From contig CAKZYJ010000259.1 in assembly GCA_937884755.1 (NCBI GenBank), forward strand, positions 1 through 34,041: a DNA stretch of 34,041 nt, given 5' to 3'. The position numbers and the translations under genes are program-made. Below, one piece after another: positions 15,950 to 32,441 of this stretch (positions are counted from its first letter, which is position 1; every line of letters begins with the position of its first letter). The DNA is from an uncultured Flammeovirgaceae bacterium. GTDB lineage: Bacteria > Bacteroidota > Bacteroidia > Cytophagales > Cyclobacteriaceae. Under the pieces are notes generated by a model, which did no database searches, was not told the DNA's origin, and saw only the letters and a list, made by a program, of their open reading frames with translations.

Positions 15950-16984
15950 ATGGGAGAACCCAATGACGATATTTGGACCTTAGTCGCCAAACAGGTTACG
16001 GGTGAATTAACCGAAGAGGAGGCTAAAAGGCTGGCCGAATGGCAACAGCAACGTCCTGAAAATCAGACCACCGTTGAACAGGCTAAAGAAATGTGGCAAC
16101 GGAGTAAAGAAACGGAGATTACCTACGAGCCGGATGTAGAAGAAGGCTGGCAACGGTTTTTGTTCCGGCGAGAGCAAAACAGACTGGATGATCCTGAACC
16201 AGACGGCTCCAAGTTGATTCCGGAGGTATCTGGTTCTAAATCGCGTAAGCTGGTTTGGTGGTTGGGAATTGCGGCCTCGTTGGCATTGCTGATAACGATT
16301 GGTTTTTTGTGGAGAAATGTTGCCTCAGAAACCGAGTGGGAGCAGTTTGCCACCGCAGAAGGAGAAAAGTTGCTGCTAACGTTACCCGATAGCAGTCAGG
16401 TGTGGTTGAACAGTGCAAGCACTTTGCGGTACGCCGAGAACTTCAATGTAGATAATCGCACGGTGTACCTGGAAGGAGAAGCCTTCTTTGACGTGAAGAA
16501 AGCTGAGGGAAGACGGTTTACCATCTTTAGTGGACCCGCTAAGACTGAGGTGATCGGGACTTCTTTTAACCTGCACGCTTATGCCGGACAACCAGTAGCG
16601 GTACAGGTAGTAAGTGGGAGAGTGGCCTTCTCACCTGCCAATCGGGATGATGCTGTTTTTCTGGAGCCGGGTGAGGAAGCTGTACTCACTGAGACCGCCG
16701 AGCCAGCTCAAAAGCAGGAAATTAGCGATACTAACTTTAGAGCCTGGCAGAATAACGTACTAAGCTTTGAAAATATTAGTTTGGCTCAAATTGCTCGTCA
16801 GATGGAAGAGCAATACGATATTACCATAGAATTAGCGGATGCGGCTCTGGCTAACTGCCGCTACACCGCTATGTTTGAAGACGCCTCCCTGGATGACGTG
16901 CTAACTACTTTGTCAATCATTGGCGATTTGTCGTACCAACAACAAGGCAATCATTACATTCTGAGTGGACCGGGTTGCCAGTAA
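15950..16984 (+). CDS. FecR-family anti-sigma factor
   Basis: This 344-residue inner-membrane protein has a cytoplasmic N-terminal part (DDIWTLVAKQVTGELTEEEA) that would hold the sigma factor. One membrane helix follows at about residues 100-120 (LVWWLGIAASLALLITIGFLW), then a periplasmic FecR domain (LTLPDSSQVWLNSASTLRY, GEAFFDVKKAEGRRFTIFSG, EVIGTSFNLHAY). The C-terminal DUF4974/STN-like module includes FENISLAQIARQMEEQYDI and ends SGPGCQ. It sits 66 bp after the sigma gene and 27 bp before the STN protein. In the known FecARI logic the periplasmic part receives a signal from an STN domain; here that domain is on the next gene, not on the receptor. Confidence 0.93.
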   Translation: MGEPNDDIWTLVAKQVTGELTEEEAKRLAEWQQQRPENQTTVEQAKEMWQRSKETEITYEPDVEEGWQRFLFRREQNRLDDPEPDGSKLIPEVSGSKSRKLVWWLGIAASLALLITIGFLWRNVASETEWEQFATAEGEKLLLTLPDSSQVWLNSASTLRYAENFNVDNRTVYLEGEAFFDVKKAEGRRFTIFSGPAKTEVIGTSFNLHAYAGQPVAVQVVSGRVAFSPANRDDAVFLEPGEEAVLTETAEPAQKQEISDTNFRAWQNNVLSFENISLAQIARQMEEQYDITIELADAALANCRYTAMFEDASLDDVLTTLSIIGDLSYQQQGNHYILSGPGCQ

Positions 16985-17011
16985 AATCTTAAAAATTTAA
17001 ACTAGGAAATC

Positions 17012-19039
17012 ATGACCTTTTCACGATACGCTCTTTTGGGAGGGGTGCTATTGCTGTGCCTTAGCAGTTTCTATCTCCTTCAACCCGATCTTCTGCAAAC
17101 CAGGGTGTCAGCTACCTACCAGGACGCTACTTTGGTTGAGGTACTAACCGATCTGCGGGATCAGTATAATCTAAAATTCGCCTACCTCAACAACGAGCTA
17201 CCTACCGAACCAAACATCACGCTGAGTGTACAGAACGCACCCCTGCATGGGGTGTTAGATGCAATACTAAAAGATACTTCCTTATCGTATCAATTGGTAA
17301 ATAATCAGATTGTACTAAAAAATGATCCTGGGAAAGCACTGCAGCCCGACCCTGAGCCAGAACTAGAGAAAACTTCAGTTCCAAACCAGTCTTCTGAGGC
17401 AGAAATACTAGCCGAGGAATCGCCCAATGCAACTACCTCAACTGATACAAACATAGCGGTAGCAGGAAACAGTACTACTGAAAATGACCTGTCCGAGACA
17501 GATAATAATTTTCCCGACCGTACCTCCCAGATCAGTGGCTCCCAAAATAATGATTCCCAGAACGACGGTTCCCAGAATGACAGTTCCCGGAGTGATGATA
17601 CTGAGAATCGTTATTCTTCAAACACTAATGACCTCGGTGAAAATATACCAGAGATGGTAGCCAAAAAAGAAGAGGCAGAACTCGCCACTAAAGTACCGTT
17701 ACCCGACAATGATGTTACTCTAAAAGAGGAAGAAGTTGCCGAACTACCACCCGCTGAACAAGAAACGGAATCATCTACTACTCAGCCACCTAATGCACAA
17801 GAACAAGGAGAAGTTGCTAAGAAAATCACGGAAACTATTCAGGAGGGAATGGACTACGCCATCTTCAATAACCTACCCGATGAGTCATCTTACGAGACGA
17901 GACCGCTGCACATTGGATTCATTTATCCACTGAGTACTAACGGGATTAACGCTGGGCAGTACGTCAACTGGCTATCGTTTCACGTCCTCATTGGCTACTC
18001 TGCCGGGCTGAATGGCGTAGAAGCCTCGGGTTTCGGGAATATAGAAAACGATTTTGTCAGCGGAGTTCAGGCAGCGGGGTTTTTCAACTTGGTAAAAAAT
18101 AGAGTAAGTGGAGTACAGGCGGCAGGCTTTCTCAACCTGAACGGTGGAACGCTGGAAGGTGGACAATTTGCAGGTTTTCTGAACACTAGCCTTGACTCTA
18201 TTGAAGGTGTACAAGGTGCAGGGTTCTTAAATGTGTCTACTGGCTATACTGATGGCGTACAAGGAGCTGGGTTTAGCAATATTATAACGCAGAATGCTCA
18301 CGCTGTGCAAGCCTCTGGATTTGCTAATATTGCTACTAGTAATCTGAAAGGAGCACAAATCGCCGGCTTTGGAAACTACACTCATTACTTGGATGGAGCC
18401 CAGCTTGCCGGTTTTGTTAATATTACTACTGGCGATGTTAAAGGTTTTCAGGGGAGCGGCTTCATAAATGTTGCTCGTAATGTGAAGGGAGTACAACTCA
18501 GTGTATTTAACGTAGCCGACAGTGTGGATGGAGTACCGATTGGTCTACTGAGTATTGTTCGTAAGAATGGCTATCGGACATTAGAAGTGTGGGGTGGGGA
18601 AACTATGTACGCTAACATAGCTTATAAAATTGGTGTTCGGAAGTTTTACAATATTTTCTCATTCGGTTCTCAGTTTGCCGATGCTGATTTTCGCTATGGG
18701 CTTGGCTACGGGGTCGGACATATCGCTGCTCTATCGCCTACGGTCGATTTATCCATAGATATAATTGCTCAGCAAGTCAACGATAGTGATAATCCTATCT
18801 TTAATAACAATCAGGAGCTAAACTTACTCAACTCATTCCGGTTAGGATTCGCCAAGCAGTTCTCTGAGCATTTTGGTCTATTTGCTGGCCCTACGTTTAA
18901 TGTGCTAGTATCGGAAGTGGTGAACTCCGATGGAACAGTTGGTAGTAATTTAGCCCCCTACACTTTTTTTGACCGGACTTATAATGGTCGCACCAACGTT
19001 CAAATGTGGGCAGGAGTTAACGTAGGTCTTCGTTTTTAA
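17012..19039 (+). CDS. STN domain fused to a 16-residue-repeat surface protein (LA_2272-like repeats)
   Basis: The 675-residue exported protein has a signal peptide (1-32) and an STN (secretin/TonB N-terminal) domain at about 34-104 (VSATYQDATLVEVLTDLRDQ, then SLSYQLVNNQIVL). A low-complexity acidic and Ser/Asn/Gln-rich linker follows to about 290 (repeats like GSQNDSSRSDD). About 12 tandem 16-residue repeats occupy about 335-515 (GVQAAGFLNL, GVQGAGFSNI, GAQIAGFGNY), then a beta-rich region of about 160 residues ends VNVGLRF like an outer-membrane barrel. The repeats resemble the LA_2272 surface-repeat family, predicted to fold as a beta-solenoid or small barrel. Sitting between FecR and a receptor lacking STN, it is the likely signal input for FecR. 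Confidence 0.8.
   Translation: MTFSRYALLGGVLLLCLSSFYLLQPDLLQTRVSATYQDATLVEVLTDLRDQYNLKFAYLNNELPTEPNITLSVQNAPLHGVLDAILKDTSLSYQLVNNQIVLKNDPGKALQPDPEPELEKTSVPNQSSEAEILAEESPNATTSTDTNIAVAGNSTTENDLSETDNNFPDRTSQISGSQNNDSQNDGSQNDSSRSDDTENRYSSNTNDLGENIPEMVAKKEEAELATKVPLPDNDVTLKEEEVAELPPAEQETESSTTQPPNAQEQGEVAKKITETIQEGMDYAIFNNLPDESSYETRPLHIGFIYPLSTNGINAGQYVNWLSFHVLIGYSAGLNGVEASGFGNIENDFVSGVQAAGFFNLVKNRVSGVQAAGFLNLNGGTLEGGQFAGFLNTSLDSIEGVQGAGFLNVSTGYTDGVQGAGFSNIITQNAHAVQASGFANIATSNLKGAQIAGFGNYTHYLDGAQLAGFVNITTGDVKGFQGSGFINVARNVKGVQLSVFNVADSVDGVPIGLLSIVRKNGYRTLEVWGGETMYANIAYKIGVRKFYNIFSFGSQFADADFRYGLGYGVGHIAALSPTVDLSIDIIAQQVNDSDNPIFNNNQELNLLNSFRLGFAKQFSEHFGLFAGPTFNVLVSEVVNSDGTVGSNLAPYTFFDRTYNGRTNVQMWAGVNVGLRF
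18012..18570 (+). repeat. Tandem 16-residue repeats within the STN/solenoid gene
   Basis: About twelve copies of a 48-bp unit encode (G)xQxxGFxNxxxxxxx. Nucleotide sequence has diverged between copies while the GF-N core is kept, so the repeats are old and selected at the protein level. Confidence 0.75.
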
Positions 19040-19055
19040 AATCCGGAAAGACACC

Positions 19056-21518
19056 ATGAGAAGAACACATACTGTTCAGAATTTGCTTCGGCTTGTACAG
19101 CGTAGCTACGCCCGAGGGTGGGAAGATTCTGTGCGTCAGTACGAAGAACTACATCCAAAATCAAAGTCTACAAACCGTAGAAAGTCACGCATACAGAAAA
19201 CTGTTTTAACGCTCTCGCTGTTATTAGCTGCTAACCTGCTGGTAGCCCAAGAACTCACCCAAACCATTCGGGGGAAAGTAATTGATCAACAGTCGCAGGC
19301 TGGAGTAGTCGGAGCCAATATTATTGTGCAAAATTCTAATCCGCTACTCGGGAGCAGCACCGATGCTGATGGAAACTTTCGGATTGCTGACGTACCTATC
19401 GGACGGCACACCTTACTGGTTACTAGCATTGGCTACGAGAACGCCGTAATTCCTGAATTAGTAGTTGGATCAGGTAAGGAGGTAGTACTGACCATTCGTC
19501 TTACCGAGTCGCTAGTGCAGATGGAGGAGATTGTAATTTCAGCCGCTGATCAGGAAAAGGGTAAGCCTAGTAACGATTTGGCGTACATCAGTGCCCGCTC
19601 GTTTACTGTTGAAGAAACCAAACGCTACGCTGCCAGTGTGAACGACCCCGCCCGAATGGCACTTTCGTTTGCCGGAGTAGCTTCCAATGATGATCAATCC
19701 AATAATATTGTTATTCGGGGTAACTCACCTCGGGGCTTATTGTGGCGTGTTGAAGGAGTAGAAGTACCCAACCCTAATCATTTTGGCGAAGAAGGGGCTT
19801 CGGGAGGCGGTATCAGTATGTTGAGCGTCAATATGCTGGATAATTCAGATTTTTATACCGGAGCCTTTCCGGCAGAGTACGGGAATGCTTCTTCGGGAGT
19901 ATTTGATATTAAACTGCGTAAGGGCAACAACGAAAAACGAGAGTACGCTTTTCAGGCGGGTGTTCTGGGTGTAGATATGGCTGCTGAGGGTCCCTTCAGC
20001 AAAAACAGCCGAGCATCCTATCTTATCAATTACCGTTACTCTACCTTAGCTGTACTAAGCCAATTAGGTATAGAAGTTAGTGGCGACGCAGTCCCCAACT
20101 TTCAAGATGCTGCCCTTAAAATTCATGTGCCCACCCGAAAGGCAGGTTCCTTTTCACTGTGGGGCGTGGGCGGTTTAAGCCGACAGGATATTGATGATCC
20201 GGAAGAAAAGGAGTCGTTCCGATACAACATGGGTACGGCTGGCTTATCGCACGTATATTTCTTCGGTCAACGAACGTATCTGGAATCCATCGTTTCCTAC
20301 TCCCAAACCCTCAACGCTTTTTCAGATGATGAACCCCCTTTTAATTACAACTTTGAAGAACGGTTCCGTAAGTCCTCTCTGCGAGGATCATTTTTGCTGA
20401 ATCATAAATTTAGTGCCCGACATACACTTCGCACGGGAGTAATTGCCAGTCATCTTAACTTTGATTTATTAGCCGAAGGAGTAGCCGATACACTTTCGTT
20501 CACGGAAGTAGACAGTGATGGAAGCACTCAATTATGGCAGGGGTACGCCCAATGGCAGTTTCGGGCTACTGAAGCTCTTACGTTTAATGCCGGATTACAT
20601 CACATGTACTTTCGGCTGAACGATAGCCAAAGCCTGGAACCTAGAGTTGGACTGCGTTGGGCATTCGCACCCGGACAAACGCTGAGTGCCGGATTTGGAG
20701 TGCATAGTCGAGTTGATCCCCTGGTAAATTATTTTGCTACCTTTCGTCTCAATCCTGATGCGCCGTATACTCAGCCTAACCGTAATCTGGACTTAACCAA
20801 ATCGCGCCACTACGTGGTTGGCTACGAACGAACACTACGCGACGACCTGCGCCTGAAAGTGGAAGCTTACTACCAACAACTCTACGATGTGCCTATTGGC
20901 CTACCGGCTGGTTCGGACATTCCCTGGTACCGAGCCTATTCATTGATTAACTATCAGGAAGGAATAGTAGACTTTCCGCTAGGTAATAATGGAACCGGGC
21001 GCAACTATGGTGTAGAATTTACGCTGGAGAAGTTCTTCACTCAAAATTACTATTTTATGCTTACCACTTCGCTATTTGAGTCTAAGTATACCCCACTCAG
21101 CGGTGAAGAATACGATACGCGTTTCAACGGAAACCACGTAATTAATTTTCTAGGAGGGAAAGAATTTAAGGTGGGAAGAAACAAGAACAATGTGCTTGGG
21201 CTTAACTTCCGGATAAGCTGGGTAGGCGGTAACCGCTACACTCCGGTAGATATTGCTGCTTCGCGGGAAGCAGGACGAGCTGTGGTGCAGTGGGATAGAC
21301 CCTACGCGGCTCAGGTACCTGACTACTTCCGACCCGATGTCCGGGTGAGCTACCGATGGAACCGGGCTAAGTATTCTAGTATTCTCTCGCTAGATGTACA
21401 AAATGTAATTAATCGCTCCAATATCTTTACCCGCTTTTACAGCGCGTCCGAAGGAGATATGGTCGACTCTTTCCAGTTAGGATTAATTCCGGTGTTGAAC
21501 TACCGTATCGAGTTCTAA
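19056..21518 (+). CDS. TonB-dependent receptor with carboxypeptidase-like N-domain
   Basis: The 820-residue receptor has a carboxypeptidase-regulatory-like domain (TIRGKVIDQQSQAGVVGANI through SIGYENAVI, about 69-150). A plug domain follows (NIVIRGNSPRGLLWRVEGVEVPNP through EYGNASSGVFDIKLRKGN, about 200-285), then a barrel ending in LNYRIEF with terminal Phe. It is shorter than SusC proteins and no SusD follows, so glycan import is not indicated. There is no STN domain. The start (with GGAAAG upstream) gives an unusual basic extension of about 47 residues (MRRTHTVQNLLRLVQRSYAR) before the signal sequence VLTLSLLLAANLLVAQ. It probably imports the ligand that the sigma/FecR system senses. Confidence 0.92.
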   Translation: MRRTHTVQNLLRLVQRSYARGWEDSVRQYEELHPKSKSTNRRKSRIQKTVLTLSLLLAANLLVAQELTQTIRGKVIDQQSQAGVVGANIIVQNSNPLLGSSTDADGNFRIADVPIGRHTLLVTSIGYENAVIPELVVGSGKEVVLTIRLTESLVQMEEIVISAADQEKGKPSNDLAYISARSFTVEETKRYAASVNDPARMALSFAGVASNDDQSNNIVIRGNSPRGLLWRVEGVEVPNPNHFGEEGASGGGISMLSVNMLDNSDFYTGAFPAEYGNASSGVFDIKLRKGNNEKREYAFQAGVLGVDMAAEGPFSKNSRASYLINYRYSTLAVLSQLGIEVSGDAVPNFQDAALKIHVPTRKAGSFSLWGVGGLSRQDIDDPEEKESFRYNMGTAGLSHVYFFGQRTYLESIVSYSQTLNAFSDDEPPFNYNFEERFRKSSLRGSFLLNHKFSARHTLRTGVIASHLNFDLLAEGVADTLSFTEVDSDGSTQLWQGYAQWQFRATEALTFNAGLHHMYFRLNDSQSLEPRVGLRWAFAPGQTLSAGFGVHSRVDPLVNYFATFRLNPDAPYTQPNRNLDLTKSRHYVVGYERTLRDDLRLKVEAYYQQLYDVPIGLPAGSDIPWYRAYSLINYQEGIVDFPLGNNGTGRNYGVEFTLEKFFTQNYYFMLTTSLFESKYTPLSGEEYDTRFNGNHVINFLGGKEFKVGRNKNNVLGLNFRISWVGGNRYTPVDIAASREAGRAVVQWDRPYAAQVPDYFRPDVRVSYRWNRAKYSSILSLDVQNVINRSNIFTRFYSASEGDMVDSFQLGLIPVLNYRIEF

Positions 21519-27182: not shown

Positions 27183-27725
27183 ATGAAAGCAAAATTCATT
27201 ATGCGTACAAAGGTAGTCATATTAGTCATAGGGCTTATTCTCTTCTTGCTAGCGCTTACCGGATGTTTTGTTGTAACGCTCAGCCAATCACTACCGTCAG
27301 CGGCCGATTCACTAACCAAGCAGAATGACTTACTACAACGAGCGGTCAAGGCTATGAAAGAACAGGCTGAGACTGACCAATCACGAGATCCAGAAATGGA
27401 GATCGATGGACTGATCATTAGCGAGACATTAACCAAGATCGGGGTAGACTTCTACGATTTATTCTACCAACGCTGGGTTCCACCCCCAACTGCCAGTGGC
27501 TACGAAGTGCGAATCGAAGAACTACCCGCTCCCGGCTTCGGGACACTCATCGTCGTGAACGTGAATGAAACCACCGTCTTTCAACGGGTACTTCAACCGC
27601 GTTACGATCAATTAGAAGCTAGTGCTGAACTAGCTGTCTCACTGACCCAACGACACGTCAACGATCAACAACGACTTATCCAACAACTCTACGAAGAAGA
27701 CCAACAAGGTACCGGTATTTATTAA
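27183..27725 (+). CDS. csgE: Curli assembly factor CsgE with membrane anchor
   Basis: CsgE caps the periplasmic side of the CsgG secretion pore and directs curlin subunits to it. The 180-residue product has the CsgE domain at about 72-165: EIDGLIISETLTKIGVDFYD, FYQRWVPPP, GFGTLIVVNVNETTVFQRVL, SAELAVSLTQRH. It differs from E. coli CsgE (about 129 residues) in having a long hydrophobic N-terminus ending ALTGC (C28), which fits a lipobox or an uncleaved anchor, and a helical linker at 40-70. A second ATG at 27201 is equally possible. It is the first recognised gene of the csgE-csgF-csgG-curlin operon. Confidence 0.92.
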   Translation: MKAKFIMRTKVVILVIGLILFLLALTGCFVVTLSQSLPSAADSLTKQNDLLQRAVKAMKEQAETDQSRDPEMEIDGLIISETLTKIGVDFYDLFYQRWVPPPTASGYEVRIEELPAPGFGTLIVVNVNETTVFQRVLQPRYDQLEASAELAVSLTQRHVNDQQRLIQQLYEEDQQGTGIY

Positions 27726-27763
27726 CCCTTTTACTCATTATTCACTTTCTAATTCCCCCAACG

Positions 27764-28177
27764 ATGAAACGATTACTCTTCACCCTGGCTTGCTTGATCC
27801 TGTTTGCAGCAGGAAGTCAAGCCCAAGATTTTGTCTATCGTCCTACCAACCCAGCTTTCGGTGGTGATACCTTTAATTATCAGTGGCTATTGAACTCAGC
27901 AACCGCCCAGAATAATCTGGAAGACCCCGATGCCGAATTAGGCCGGTCGGAACGAGATCCGCTCACTGATTTTCAGCAAGACCTTAATCGTCGTATTCTG
28001 AGCGATCTGTCCCGCTCCTTAGTAAGTAGTCAGTTCGGCGAAGAAGGCTTAGAGGAAGGCGTCTTCGAAGTAGGCCTCTTCCAGATTGAAGTCTTTCAAG
28101 GGGCCGATGGGGTCAGTATCACCATCCTGGATACCTCTACCGGAGACCAGACCACCGTCACCGTCCCTGAATTTTAG
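27764..28177 (+). CDS. csgF: Curli assembly factor CsgF
   Basis: The product (137 residues, the same size as E. coli CsgF) has a cleavable signal peptide ending SQAQ. The conserved CsgF N-terminus follows directly (DFVYRPTNPAFGGDTFNYQW, then LLNSATAQN); this segment inserts into the CsgG pore and forms its outer constriction. The remainder is acidic with helix and C-terminal strands (IEVFQGADGVSITILDTSTG). CsgF is secreted to the cell surface, where it couples curlin export to nucleation. It lies 38 bp after csgE and 45 bp before csgG. Confidence 0.94.
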   Translation: MKRLLFTLACLILFAAGSQAQDFVYRPTNPAFGGDTFNYQWLLNSATAQNNLEDPDAELGRSERDPLTDFQQDLNRRILSDLSRSLVSSQFGEEGLEEGVFEVGLFQIEVFQGADGVSITILDTSTGDQTTVTVPEF

Positions 28178-28222
28178 ATTAGTTACCTCTGATTGATTAC
28201 CCACCCCCAACTAAGTCAACCC

Positions 28223-29599
28223 ATGCAACCGCTGAAAATTTATAAGTTATTCCTAGCCATTGGGCTGTTCACCACCGCCTGCGCCCCCTACTTTCGCCAA
28301 CCTTTGTCTACGGCACCGGCTCGGCTGGGAGCGGAGACCCCCCAGTACCAGCCTCTGACTAGCATACCGGCTCCTCAGCCGCCCGATACCGCGGCCGTAT
28401 TCAAGTTTCGTGACCAGACCGGGCAATACAAAGATGCTAATAATGGGATTAGCTACTCCACGGCTATTACCCAGGGGACAACCTCTATCTTGCTGCGAGC
28501 TTTAGAAGAATCAGGTTGGTTTGTGCCTATTGAGCGAGAAGGCTTGTCCAATTTGCTCAACGAACGCAAGATTATCCGCTCCAGTCGGGATAACTTCTCC
28601 CAAAAGAATGGCAACCCGGAACCGGATTTGCCCCCGCTGCTGTTTGCGGGCATCTTACTGGAAGGGGGCATTGTTTCTTACGATGCCAATGTGCTTACGG
28701 GAGGGGCCGGACTACGCTACTTTGGGGCTGGGGCTTCCGGACAGTACCGCCAAGACCGGGTGACGGTCTACCTGCGGGCAACTTCTACCCAAACCGGACG
28801 GATTTTAAAAACAGTGTACACCTCCAAAACGGTACTCTCCCAGAAAGTAGATGTGGGCTTATTTCGTTTTGTGAGCTTTCAGCGCTTACTGGAGACCGAA
28901 ACAGGCTTTACCTATAATGAGCCAGGCGAACTAGCCGTGCGAGAAGCTGTTGAAAAGGCCGTAGAAAGCCTGATTATTGAAGGCGTACTGGATGGGCTTT
29001 GGGATTTACAGCACGAAGAAGAGCGTAATCACCCCGCCATCCAGCGCTACCTGGCGGAGAAAGAGGAAAATCAATCGGTAGATGCCTTGGGCGGACAGCA
29101 GCGGGAGCGGCGTGGGGCGATCAGTCTGGGCTTAGGCGGTGGGGTGCTACGTTACGGGGGCGACTTCCGGCGACCGATCATCAAACCCGCGGTAGAAGGC
29201 AGTATTCAGTGGCAAGCTGGGCCTTCGTTCGCGTTGAACGTAACGGGTGGGAGGGGCACCCTAGCCACCGAAGAAGTGTATCAATCGGATTTCTACTACG
29301 GTGAGATCAGCACCCAGTTTTGGATACTGCCCCGCTACCGTTACTCGCCGTTCTTACGACTGGGGTTGGGCTTGACCAGTGAAGATACGGGTAACTTCTC
29401 AGATGTCGTGGATAACTATCTTCCCCATGCCGTCTACGAGCTAGGCTTTGAGTACCTGCTCAGCGACCGAGTAGGAATTCAAGTAGCGCTGAACCACCGC
29501 TACCTCTTCAGCGATGAGTTAGACCAGGTGGTGCAAGGCCGACGTAATGATTTTTACTGGGGGGCTAACCTCGGGCTACAACTCTATCTGGGACGCTAA
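28223..29599 (+). CDS. csgG: Curli secretion channel CsgG with C-terminal beta-barrel-like extension
   Basis: I use the ATG giving MQPLKIYKLFLAIGLFTTAC; the cysteine at 20 is the lipidation site. The TTG upstream (28193) is less likely. Residues 20-275 are the CsgG lipoprotein: VFKFRDQTGQYKD, TSILLRALEESGWFVPIERE, GLSNLLNERKIIRSSR, the pore-forming strand region (ILLEGGIVSYDANVLTGGAG, GRILKTVYTSKTVLSQKVDV) and EAVEKAVESLIIEG. E. coli CsgG ends about here (277 residues). This protein continues another 180 residues through a charged linker into alternating strands (ISLGLGGGVLRYGGDF ... FYWGANLGLQLYLGR), like an eight-stranded OmpA-type barrel. It forms the outer-membrane channel for the curlins encoded downstream. 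Confidence 0.93.
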   Translation: MQPLKIYKLFLAIGLFTTACAPYFRQPLSTAPARLGAETPQYQPLTSIPAPQPPDTAAVFKFRDQTGQYKDANNGISYSTAITQGTTSILLRALEESGWFVPIEREGLSNLLNERKIIRSSRDNFSQKNGNPEPDLPPLLFAGILLEGGIVSYDANVLTGGAGLRYFGAGASGQYRQDRVTVYLRATSTQTGRILKTVYTSKTVLSQKVDVGLFRFVSFQRLLETETGFTYNEPGELAVREAVEKAVESLIIEGVLDGLWDLQHEEERNHPAIQRYLAEKEENQSVDALGGQQRERRGAISLGLGGGVLRYGGDFRRPIIKPAVEGSIQWQAGPSFALNVTGGRGTLATEEVYQSDFYYGEISTQFWILPRYRYSPFLRLGLGLTSEDTGNFSDVVDNYLPHAVYELGFEYLLSDRVGIQVALNHRYLFSDELDQVVQGRRNDFYWGANLGLQLYLGR

Positions 29600-29660: not shown

Positions 29661-32441
29661 ATGAAAAAGTTAATCGCAAGTTTAATGATGGGTGGGCTGG
29701 CCACCGGAGTCAGCTTGGCTCAAGACAACCAGAGCGACGTCCAACAGAAGGGCGAAGAAAACTCCGGGATCGTCGTCCAGGAGGGTACAATCAACACGGC
29801 TAACATTCTTCAGGGAATTGGCGGAACGGCTGATTTTAACGAGGCGGTTCAAACGCAAATCGGAGACAAGAACGAAGCTTTTATTGATCAGGGTACAGAA
29901 GGTGGTGAGGCCTACTACAATGTGGCTACTCAGACTCAGAAGGGTGACGAAAACTCCGCTGATATTGATCAAGGGACTAGAGATGGATACGCCGAAGGCA
30001 ACACCGCCACCCAGACCCAGGAAACTGATTACAATACTGCGGTTATCGACCAGGGAGATGATGACGGCGAGGCCTACGACAACGTAGCTACCCAGACCCA
30101 AACCGGGGAGGAAAACTTCGCAGATATTGAGCAGGGCGATGAAGGTGGATACGCTGAGGAAAACGAAGCTACCCAAACCCAAGAAGGTGATTACAATACT
30201 GCGATTATCGACCAGGGAGATGATGACGGTGAGGCCTATGATAATGTAGCCACTCAATATCAAGGAGGCGACTATAACGAGGCGTTTATTGATCAAGGAG
30301 AAGACGATGGATATGGCGAAGGCAACGAAGCTACCCAAACCCAGGAGGGCGACTACAATGAAGCTTTTATTGATCAAGGCGTTGATGGTGGTGAAGCTTA
30401 CGATAATGTAGCTACCCAAACTCAACCCGGAGATGAAAACTATGCTGAAATTAACCAAGGTGACGAAGGTGGTTACGCCGAAGGCAATGAAGCTACTCAG
30501 TACCAAGAAGGTGACTTCAACGAGGCACTTATTGATCAGGGTAGTTTTGACGGTGAGGCTTACGACAACGTAGCCACCCAGGAGCAATACGGTGATGAAA
30601 ACTATGCTCAAATTGATCAGGGCAACGGCGGAGACCGGGCCGAAGATAACGTAGCAACTCAAGAGCAATACGGTGACAATAACAACGCCCTCATTGTTCA
30701 AGGAGATGAAGGCGGTTACGCTGAAGGCAACGAAGCTACCCAAATCCAAGAGGGAAATGAAAATGAAGCTACCGTAAACCAGGGAGTGCTTGATGGTGAA
30801 GCCTACGATAATGTGGCCACCCAGAGCCAACCTGGAGATGAGAATGAAGCCATTATTGATCAGGGAATTGAAGGTGGGTATGCTGAAGGTAACGAGGCTA
30901 CTCAAACTCAAGAAGGTGATAACAATAGCGCTTTCATCGAGCAAGGAACCTACGATGCTGAGTCTTACGATAATGTAGCTACTCAATATCAGGAAGGTGA
31001 CTTTAACCAAGCGACTATTGAGCAAGGCGATAATGCAGGTGGAGAAGCCTACGACAATATTGCTACGCAAGAGCAGTACGGTGACGAAAACGAAGCTGAT
31101 ATTGAGCAGGGTGATGAAGGGGGTATAGCTAGAGACAATGAGGCTACTCAGCTACAGTACGGCGACAATAACGAAGCCCGCGTAGAGCAAGGTGATGACG
31201 ATGGTGAAGCTTATGATAACGTTGCCTACCAAGAGCAATACGGCGAAGACAACTACGCCCAAGTTGACCAAGGTGACCAAGATGGTTTCGGAGACGGAAA
31301 CGATGCCACCCAATATCAGGATGGTAAAAACAACGACGCTCGTATTTTCCAAGGTGATGAAGGTGGAGAAGCTTACGATAACGTAGCCGATCAGTACCAA
31401 GAAGGGGACGGAAATGACGCGGACATTGAGCAAGGTGTTGAAGACGGCGAAGCTTACGATAATATCGCCGAGCAAGAGCAGTACGGCGATAACAATGTTG
31501 CCTACATTCAGCAAGGAGTAAACGGTAGCTCTTCGGAAGATAGTGAAGCTATTCAGTATCAAGAAGGGGACGAAAATGACGCTTTTATCTTCCAGGCGGG
31601 TGAAGGAAACCTAGCCGACCAGTACCAAGAAGGTGATTACAACGTGGCCGATGCCCGACAGTACGGTGACGATAACATAGCTGATCAAGAGCAGTACGGT
31701 GACTACAACGAAGCCACCATCAACCAAGGTAGTGCTACCAACTTTGTAGATGGTAACCTGGCCGAGCAATACCAGGAAGGTGATGAGAACTTCGCACTTA
31801 CCCAACAAGCGGGTGATTTCAATACGGCCTATGTGAGCCAAACTGGTGACGAAAACAGTGCTGTGCAGCAGCAAATCGCTAACAACTCCGAAGTATACAT
31901 TGAGCAGATTGGTGACCGAAACAGTGCTGTTCAGCAGCAAGTAGGCGAACTTTCAGTGGAACAGATTGCTGACTTGGAGAACTTAGATCCTTTCTCATTA
32001 TCCCGCGGTGATAACCAGAAAGCCGAAGCCTACCAAACTGGCGAAGATAACGTGAGCTTGCAGCAGCAGGGTGGCGAAGATAACGTGGCTTACGCCGAGC
32101 AGATTGGTGAGCGCAACATTGTTGTTCAAGCCCAAAGCGGCGAAGGAAACGATGCCTACGCTAAACAAGATGGCTACGACAATAGCATTGAGCAATTTCA
32201 ACTCGGTGATTACAACGAAGCCGACGCCCTCCAGATTGGCTACGATAACATTTCGTTCCAAAGCCAGATTGGTGAGTACAATGTATCTGATGTAGTACAA
32301 GACGGTTTTGAGTTAACCTCTATTACTACTCAGGAAGGTGACTACAACGAGGCTTACGTAGATCAGAGTGGCAACGGTCATATCAGTACCATCAATCAGA
32401 TCGGTACTGGTAATGTCGCTGACGTTACTCAAGGTAATTAA
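29661..32441 (+). CDS. Giant acidic curlin-repeat protein (presumed major amyloid subunit)
   Basis: This 926-residue exported protein has a signal peptide ending SLAQ. Its body is almost entirely curlin-type repeats with the core QxGDxNxAxIxQG. Residues 63-630 are 21 units of 27 residues (one of 28): an 11-residue canonical half-repeat, then a half-repeat with a turn enlarged by about five residues (for example DDDGEAYDNVATQ). Units of GEAYDNVA type alternate with GYAEGNEA type. After residue 631 the period falls to the canonical 22, with an insertion around 765-780 (ADLENLDPFSLSRGD). The composition is strongly acidic. CsgA has five repeats, so a many-rung amyloid beta-solenoid is expected. 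It follows csgG by 61 bp and is presumably exported through CsgG. Confidence 0.88.
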   Translation: MKKLIASLMMGGLATGVSLAQDNQSDVQQKGEENSGIVVQEGTINTANILQGIGGTADFNEAVQTQIGDKNEAFIDQGTEGGEAYYNVATQTQKGDENSADIDQGTRDGYAEGNTATQTQETDYNTAVIDQGDDDGEAYDNVATQTQTGEENFADIEQGDEGGYAEENEATQTQEGDYNTAIIDQGDDDGEAYDNVATQYQGGDYNEAFIDQGEDDGYGEGNEATQTQEGDYNEAFIDQGVDGGEAYDNVATQTQPGDENYAEINQGDEGGYAEGNEATQYQEGDFNEALIDQGSFDGEAYDNVATQEQYGDENYAQIDQGNGGDRAEDNVATQEQYGDNNNALIVQGDEGGYAEGNEATQIQEGNENEATVNQGVLDGEAYDNVATQSQPGDENEAIIDQGIEGGYAEGNEATQTQEGDNNSAFIEQGTYDAESYDNVATQYQEGDFNQATIEQGDNAGGEAYDNIATQEQYGDENEADIEQGDEGGIARDNEATQLQYGDNNEARVEQGDDDGEAYDNVAYQEQYGEDNYAQVDQGDQDGFGDGNDATQYQDGKNNDARIFQGDEGGEAYDNVADQYQEGDGNDADIEQGVEDGEAYDNIAEQEQYGDNNVAYIQQGVNGSSSEDSEAIQYQEGDENDAFIFQAGEGNLADQYQEGDYNVADARQYGDDNIADQEQYGDYNEATINQGSATNFVDGNLAEQYQEGDENFALTQQAGDFNTAYVSQTGDENSAVQQQIANNSEVYIEQIGDRNSAVQQQVGELSVEQIADLENLDPFSLSRGDNQKAEAYQTGEDNVSLQQQGGEDNVAYAEQIGERNIVVQAQSGEGNDAYAKQDGYDNSIEQFQLGDYNEADALQIGYDNISFQSQIGEYNVSDVVQDGFELTSITTQEGDYNEAYVDQSGNGHISTINQIGTGNVADVTQGN
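29847..31550 (+). repeat. 21 tandem 81-bp units in the giant curlin gene
   Basis: Each unit encodes 27 residues; unit 15 has one extra codon. Neighbouring units form pairs, giving a 162-bp higher-order period: the second half alternates between GEAYDNVA and GYAEGNEA types most clearly in units 1-9 and 11-13. Synonymous differences between units show the array is not the product of very recent expansion. Confidence 0.9.

Follow-up and report, generated by a model that had tools for sequence, protein, structure and literature searches.

A tethered solenoid-barrel protein carrying an STN domain as a candidate outer-membrane transducer of FecI/FecR-type signalling in Bacteroidota

The 34,041-nucleotide stretch of DNA analysed here (the window; contig C259 of an uncultured Flammeovirgaceae genome of 8.35 Mb) encodes a new variant of cell-surface signalling, which is well supported as an architecture: an STN domain, a tether, a solenoid and a barrel are joined in one protein, P0001, encoded between fecR and the gene of a TonB-dependent receptor. 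The data support the gene order, the domains, the folds predicted for P0001 and the tie between STN and FecR. We consider it fairly likely that P0001 serves a FecI/FecR-type system as its outer-membrane transducer, with an OmpA-type barrel and a periplasmic solenoid replacing the TonB receptor.

On the forward strand, the genes run in the order sigma factor, fecR, P0001 and TonB receptor (Table 1), with the ECF sigma factor gene adjoining that of the FecR-type regulator, as in FecI/FecR systems. The sigma factor matches TIGR02985 at E 2.4e-47 (161 bits, cut-off 126), and the periplasmic part of FecR aligns to PupR (6ovk_R) at Z 19.3 over 209 residues and to BDI_1681 (4m0n) at Z 22.1. An earlier reading of the sequence alone (the sequence-only reading) had placed STN on a separate protein between fecR and a receptor with a carboxypeptidase-like domain and no STN. 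Both points are confirmed: Pfam finds STN in P0001 at residues 56-103 (E 3.7e-7; 30.3 bits, cut-off 28.4), and in the receptor it finds CarboxypepD and Plug domains and no STN match. Elsewhere in the window lies the gene of a curlin-repeat protein (926 aa, 29661-32441, forward strand; Pfam Curlin_rpt E 1.5e-59, 5 stretches), and the ORFs at 27183-29599, immediately 5' of it, could be export genes for that protein.

Table 1. Coordinates of the signalling genes and domains in the window, and of Dma-like relatives in other loci.
Feature	Coordinates	Strand	Basis or remark
ECF sigma factor, 209 aa	15254-15883	+	TIGR02985, Sigma70_r2, Sigma70_r4_2
FecR anti-sigma/sigma regulator, 344 aa	15950-16984	+	Pfam FecR E 1.4e-15, FecR_C E 2e-16
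FecR_C, STN-like C-terminal subdomain of FecR (residues 271-337)	16760-16960	+	Pfam
P0001, STN-tether-solenoid-barrel protein, 675 aa	17012-19039	+	Pfam, AlphaFold2, structure comparison
STN domain (residues 31-104)	17102-17323	+	Pfam, AlphaFold2 model, PupB match
Disordered acidic tether (residues 114-258, 145 residues)	17351-17785	+	pLDDT < 50
Beta-solenoid (residues 295-512)	17894-18547	+	Model, structure comparison, repeat motif
8-stranded OmpA-like transmembrane barrel (residues 516-675), C-terminal Phe	18557-19036	+	Predicted model
TonB-dependent receptor without STN, 820 aa	19056-21518	+	CarbopepD_reg_2 E 5.4e-16, Plug E 6e-6
Receptor CarboxypepD_reg-like domain (residues 71-161)	19266-19538	+	Pfam
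Dma-like loci	L083:5876-8182, L088:6539-8272, L087:2887-4629		Right after sigma gene

The AlphaFold2 model of P0001, for which the scan of named genomes described below supplied 63 further alignment rows, has a mean pLDDT of 80.6 and a pTM of 0.60. The STN fold, which had been expected at residues 34-104, is modelled as strand-helix-strand-helix-strand-strand over 31-104 (block pLDDT 84-97), and residues 29-112 superpose on the signalling domain of PupB (6ovk_B; Z 10.0, 2.8 A over 80/81 residues). Pfam also reports a weaker FecR_C match on this stretch (E 1.4e-5), with no Plug and no families beyond STN and FecR_C in the whole protein, and a search of the STN sequence against PDB sequences returned an unrelated protein as its best match (E 0.036). 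Export of P0001 is suggested by a hydrophobic stretch that is clearer in relatives; the case is weaker than originally claimed, as judged by eye there is no obvious signal-peptidase site. The motif L-C-[LI] is common to residues 8-20 of P0001 and the starts of the proteins at L036, L038-L042 and L044; it sits within the signal's hydrophobic core, and the export signal presumably lacks the usual lipobox in P0001 and these relatives. A cleavage site is not clear in the export signals of the window's genus, and an uncleaved anchor is possible. As for the linker, described as 180 disordered acidic residues, its acidic character stands (40 D+E vs 11 K+R at 106-283; 34 D+E and 8 K+R within the tether itself) and its length shrinks to the 145 residues in Table 1. 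In the model, a helix at 262-283 lies between tether and solenoid; it is the most variable part of P0001 compared (entropy 3.05 bits, 32 aligned proteins).

From residue 295 to 675 the model is all-beta, with ten-residue blocks mostly at pLDDT 94-98 and few lower. The anticipated region of 16-residue repeats consists of a 16-residue coil in 11 copies, the first beginning at residue 335 and the last at 493, with near-constant spacing (16, 16, 16, 16, 16, 16, 16, 15, 16, 15), and shuffling of residues 295-520 yielded at most one copy of the motif in any of 10,000 shuffles. These shuffles, together with the existence of relatives, rule out chance or an annotation artefact as the explanation of P0001. 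At the DNA level the coils have diverged, since Tandem Repeats Finder reported no 48-base-period array in 16900-19100 and three short arrays of 8-15 bases. The solenoid matches in the PDB have rmsd values of 3.6-10.7 A, residues 295-519 aligning to GlmU at Z 13.3 and 9.7 A and to HxuA at Z 12.2 and 3.8 A over 168 residues, and Foldseek with the whole P0001 model found nothing in the PDB at E <= 0.001 (best 4.2e-3). Short glycine-rich repeats are shared with the LA_2272 and VC2662 repeat proteins, the former having been named in the sequence-only reading. P0001 itself reaches 22.1 bits against LA_2272_repeat (NF047436), under the cut-off of 25, and its matches to both NCBIfam families are under their cut-offs and confined to the repeat region, with STN outside; within the family, LA_2272 matches 19 and VC2662 20 of the 32 aligned proteins at E <= 0.001.

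What had been called a barrel-like end is a full transmembrane barrel in the model, of the OmpA type, closed by eight antiparallel strands (521-529, 534-542, 545-556, 559-573, 578-591, 604-616, 622-634 and 661-674). It aligns to the designed barrel 6x9z (Z 13.6, 1.8 A/110), NspA 1p4t (Z 12.8, 2.8 A/131), OprF 4rlc (Z 12.8) and OmpA 1qjp (Z 12.1). Both chain ends of OmpA are on the periplasmic side. If the same holds here, the solenoid would be periplasmic and the barrel loops alone would face outward, with the gaps at 592-603 and 635-660 outside; this placing is contrary to the name of the NCBI repeat family, which says 'surface'. Across the 32 aligned proteins, mean entropy is 2.82 and 2.64 bits in these outer loops, 2.18 in STN, 1.89 in the strands and 1.76 in the solenoid, the lowest value compared.

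Relatives of P0001 tie the STN domain to FecR. Our survey set consisted of 119 loci and the window, with duplicates removed by the last 150 residues, and was read with profiles for STN, CarboxypepD, FecR, sigma factor, receptor, solenoid and barrel that were built on the window and the initial 40 loci and are therefore biased toward P0001's family; 40 flanked places came from a same-family scan and were picked for genus spread, so that frequencies are those of the samples taken. The set contains 143 distinct solenoid-barrel proteins, 84 with STN and 59 scored STN-less. FecR is the next recognised upstream gene in 82/84 STN proteins (gaps of -138 to 228 bp), and in the remaining two the start lies 55 bases and 1 base, respectively, from the end of the contig. 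In a second sample FecR lies upstream of 14/14 STN-solenoid-barrel proteins and in a third of 14/15, the fifteenth being at a contig edge. After removal of 2 and 4 proteins already counted, FecR is directly upstream of 104 of the 107 distinct proteins in the sampled Bacteroidota; each of the remaining three lies at the end of a contig. The pairing of STN-solenoid proteins with FecR is thus supported, and the possibility that the architecture is routine without FecR is rejected for these samples. Among STN-less proteins, FecR is upstream of one in 59 (L072), the start of which is probably miscalled, given that a CarboxypepD part is present; upstream of the others there is a solenoid-barrel protein within 3 kb (26/59), a sigma gene (3/59) or none of these (29/59). 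Two further STN-less rows, L144 and L095|1, carry the CarboxypepD domain as L072 does (3/59 altogether) and have their starts no more than 21 bases from the edge of the locus. On the 3' side of STN-solenoid genes, four of six scanned neighbours are DUF2807 proteins (GIN, putative adhesin head; L096:9318-10061, L101:10146-10865, L122:6198-6932 and L127:9538-10269), which may be regulon members.

Within its own genome, the window's arrangement looks like an exception among ordinary FecA-type arrangements. The genome has 26 FecR matches, at least 12 of the other 25 being followed on the same strand by a receptor-like frame that matches the window's TonB receptor, and STN matches at E <= 1 fall in 16 distinct frames, 11 of them of 896-1,204 aa. 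A search with P0001 returned the window as the only place spanning STN and solenoid. A second repeat protein of about 470-490 aa (G000:C501:11251-11811) is matched by the solenoid profile and unmatched by those of STN and the barrel end.

Because fecR and P0001 share a reading frame, reading through the stop gives a single chain, as is possible in 11 other loci. Modelled as 337 residues with 73 alignment rows, 12 of them paired, this chain reaches pLDDT 92.0 and pTM 0.84, for one cognate fusion alone and with a linker that enforces nearness; by our own estimate a randomly placed STN would give a pTM of ~0.65, FecR being two thirds of the chain. The junction at ~221-250 is the sole stretch with block means < 70. 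The model lends support, short of a docking test, to the predicted contact of STN with FecR. For the PupB-PupR contact a structure has been solved and a binding strength of 0.69 uM reported (PMC7186176), and in FoxA/FoxR the STN domain binds the anti-sigma factor already without signal and guards it against proteolysis (PMC11637429).

We propose that the barrel would moor P0001 in the outer membrane, and that the flexible tether would allow the N-terminal STN to cross the periplasmic space and bind FecR's periplasmic domain. The trigger at the outer membrane might be a ligand that binds the loops of the barrel, a partner (the adjoining TonB receptor, for instance) or a change in the membrane itself; it would shift or break the STN-FecR contact, upon which FecR would be processed, presumably by proteolysis, and the sigma factor freed. 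By analogy with FoxA/FoxR, where STN is bound before the signal, loss rather than gain of contact may be the trigger. Given that P0001 has no plug domain, the TonB motor should be dispensable, and P0001 would signal without it.

Parts of this arrangement have known counterparts. In common with FecA/FecR/FecI, PupB/PupR and FoxA/FoxR, the window combines an ECF sigma factor with a FecR-type regulator that has an STN-like end (PMC7186176, PMC9249621), and, as in the FecA, PupB and FoxA systems, STN is borne by an outer-membrane protein (here a predicted one) encoded in the sigma/fecR cluster. The difference is that in FecA-type systems STN is attached to a large plugged TonB receptor, whereas that of P0001 is attached to a predicted 8-stranded barrel and a solenoid; with no Plug and eight modelled strands at 516-675, P0001 falls outside the TonB-dependent transducers. 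The STN-CarboxypepD TonB receptors of Bacteroidota share their STN+CarboxypepD half with the CarboxypepD-bearing relatives of P0001, but the C-terminal half is swapped. A receptor-free STN with a CSS regulator and an ECF sigma factor is found in VreA/VreR/VreI (PUMA3) of Pseudomonas aeruginosa; however, VreA is described as largely soluble and lacks a barrel, its second domain resembling TolA/TonB (PMC2729926), whereas the model of P0001 has solenoid and barrel. Dma proteins, likewise of Bacteroidota, are outer-membrane barrels that a long disordered tether in the periplasm connects to an ECF sigma factor (PMC13088901). Unlike P0001, the chain of which is broken at the FecR-STN contact, Dma runs as a single chain from the cytoplasm to the outer membrane; P0001 differs further in its N-terminal STN, its separate FecR and, in the model, the solenoid before the barrel. 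VreA is a precedent for an off-receptor STN and Dma for barrel-sigma wiring, and what is new, within the literature covered, is their combination. Among the open-access titles and abstracts listed, a set with subscription papers mostly outside it, STN or FecR with such a barrel was not found.

Some relatives of P0001 are themselves Dma-like. The Dma layout consists of an anti-sigma domain, a transmembrane helix, a disordered tether and a barrel (PMC13088901). The proteins of L083 (Microscilla, 768 aa) and L088 (Microscillaceae, 577 aa), each overlapped by a sigma gene, have a short charged N-terminus, a hydrophobic stretch and a long polar part, followed by a solenoid and barrel of the P0001 type (E 3e-68 and 1e-48 for the solenoid and barrel profiles in L083). 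Pfam gave no match at E <= 0.1 in either protein; by analogy with Dma, we infer that the N-terminus binds the sigma factor. A barrel placed behind such an anti-sigma-like N-terminus suggests that this barrel is able to act on a sigma pathway with no receptor involved. The Dma-like cases amount to three loci (L083, L087, with an uncertain start, and L088) and a near copy that is cut (L190), and when 148 genomes from the window's order were searched with L083, 20 loci came back, of which solely L083, L088 and L190 are Dma-like.

The family is widespread in Bacteroidota. P0001 has matches at E <= 1e-6 in 186 of the 295 genomes of the window's family, STN-less matches included. A scan of named genomes gave 346 relatives among 378 candidate stretches; the best 80 of the 346 were taken, corresponding to 79 loci, and all of these are by title from Bacteroidota (Cytophagales, with the genera Cesiribacter, Adhaeribacter, Emticicia, Runella and Larkinella; Marinilabiliales/Bacteroidales; Saprospiraceae; and one Chitinophaga). 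In a sample spread across the phylum, the family profile matches 126/296 genomes at E <= 1e-10, many of the 126 through the STN-CarboxypepD half alone, in frames of ~870-1,250 aa that were taken as receptors; four STN-CarboxypepD frames of the source genome (L003-L006) match the receptor profile too. A viral origin of P0001 was considered and rejected, the one scan of viral contigs with P0001 having returned no relative.

A CarboxypepD-like domain lies between STN and solenoid in 58 of the 84 STN proteins and is absent from 26, the window's among them, with alike median STN-solenoid distances (136.5 and 131.5 residues, respectively); Pfam at E <= 0.01 finds STN in 25/32 and CarbopepD_reg_2 in 22/32 aligned proteins. 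STN+CarboxypepD is thus the commoner module, and the disordered linker described in the sequence-only reading turns out to be a feature of one branch. In a quick tree of the barrel ends (142 of the 143 proteins; one support value, simple model), a supported split (98) separates the 25 rows that have STN but lack CarboxypepD from 57 of the 58 STN+CarboxypepD rows. Over 139 rows, with L144, L095|1 and L072 left out, the tree requires a minimum of 11 changes of the STN label, and well-supported branches force at least six changes for the STN-less group; the Dma-like rows show 2 changes, 1 of them forced. Judging from these repeated changes, the barrel seems to have been joined to or severed from the signalling half several times. 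Use of the tree for telling STN gain from loss was ruled out, as the count of changes is independent of the root.

The sequence-only reading had suggested a split transducer, in which the solenoid protein would either dock on the receptor or sense the ligand itself, and one part of it stands, in that STN is off the receptor and on a predicted outer-membrane protein encoded with FecR. Taken further, P0001 would be an adaptor docked on the TonB receptor that imports the ligand, and motion would pass through the solenoid-barrel and STN to FecR in a TonB-dependent manner, which we consider unlikely. In the window, the genes of P0001 and the receptor are 16 bp apart. There are 69 distinct STN loci with 5 kb or more of sequence downstream, and in 35 of them the next 5 kb hold a same-strand receptor of the window's subfamily. 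Of the other 34, three (L131, L134 and L138) have one on the opposite strand, and seven (L041, L044, L089, L114, L122, L139 and L146) show a receptor match farther off or a fragment; a receptor is also the next recognised gene for 20 of the 59 STN-less relatives, all of which points toward partnership. However, the subfamily receptor is missing from the 5 kb of same-strand sequence downstream in those 34 of the 69 loci, so that P0001, despite the receptor's frequent recurrence, is probably the transducer itself. In 24 of these 34 there is no receptor-profile match anywhere in the examined stretch, and the receptor, judged from these stretches, is apparently a frequent and not a needed neighbour of the STN-barrel protein. 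Partnership is also at odds with L051, L053, L058 and L059, where the next ORF (at least 100 aa) lies within 10 bp on the opposite strand, and with the second full-length receptor of the subfamily in the source genome (45% identity), which is on a contig (C266) without a P0001 match. An STN-less solenoid-barrel protein occurs within 5 kb downstream in 21/69 loci, 14 of them with the receptor too. At L081:2249-4464, three fragments of the receptor subfamily 5' of the sigma gene are apparently a decayed copy, and L041 and L044 have a different TonB receptor between sigma and fecR.

The lack of the subfamily receptor in about half of the loci would also fit a role of P0001 apart from ligand sensing, in which STN merely stabilises FecR or serves outer-membrane quality control, and the solenoid-barrel, as a reader of envelope stress, signals how it is assembled or what lipids surround it. 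The solenoid is the most conserved part and the long outer loops are variable, as expected of a conserved periplasmic reader; but outer-membrane proteins usually have variable outer loops, so that this contrast would arise in any of them. Dma proteins of Bacteroides are reported to govern vesicle formation (PMC13088901), which is in line with such a role. The neighbouring genes, named in a small sample of loci, speak neither for nor against a link to stress genes. On balance, we regard it as quite improbable. Finally, STN might be a relic of a receptor fusion with no use in signalling, and its Pfam score in P0001 is indeed barely above the cut-off. Retention of FecR upstream of nearly every STN protein, despite the many changes of the STN label on the tree, makes this explanation very hard to credit. 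The reading of P0001 as transducer might extend to a receptor-free, TonB-independent class of signalling, in which an exchangeable solenoid-OmpA sensor is wired through STN-FecR, with or without the CarboxypepD domain, or through an anti-sigma fusion, and STN-less copies lie beside receptors; we put this joint reading forward tentatively, as a possibility short of a probable one.

In textbook cell-surface signalling, a TonB-driven importer doubles as the sensor. A FecR-reading domain on a small barrel across Bacteroidota would decouple sensing from uptake, and would tie FecR systems to Dma proteins. STN-barrel systems would offer a clean way to ask if STN-FecR signalling requires TonB, and they suggest a possible input for FecR regulators without a nearby STN receptor. 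An STN domain on a tethered barrel with a repeat spine points to a second wiring of outside-to-inside gene control.
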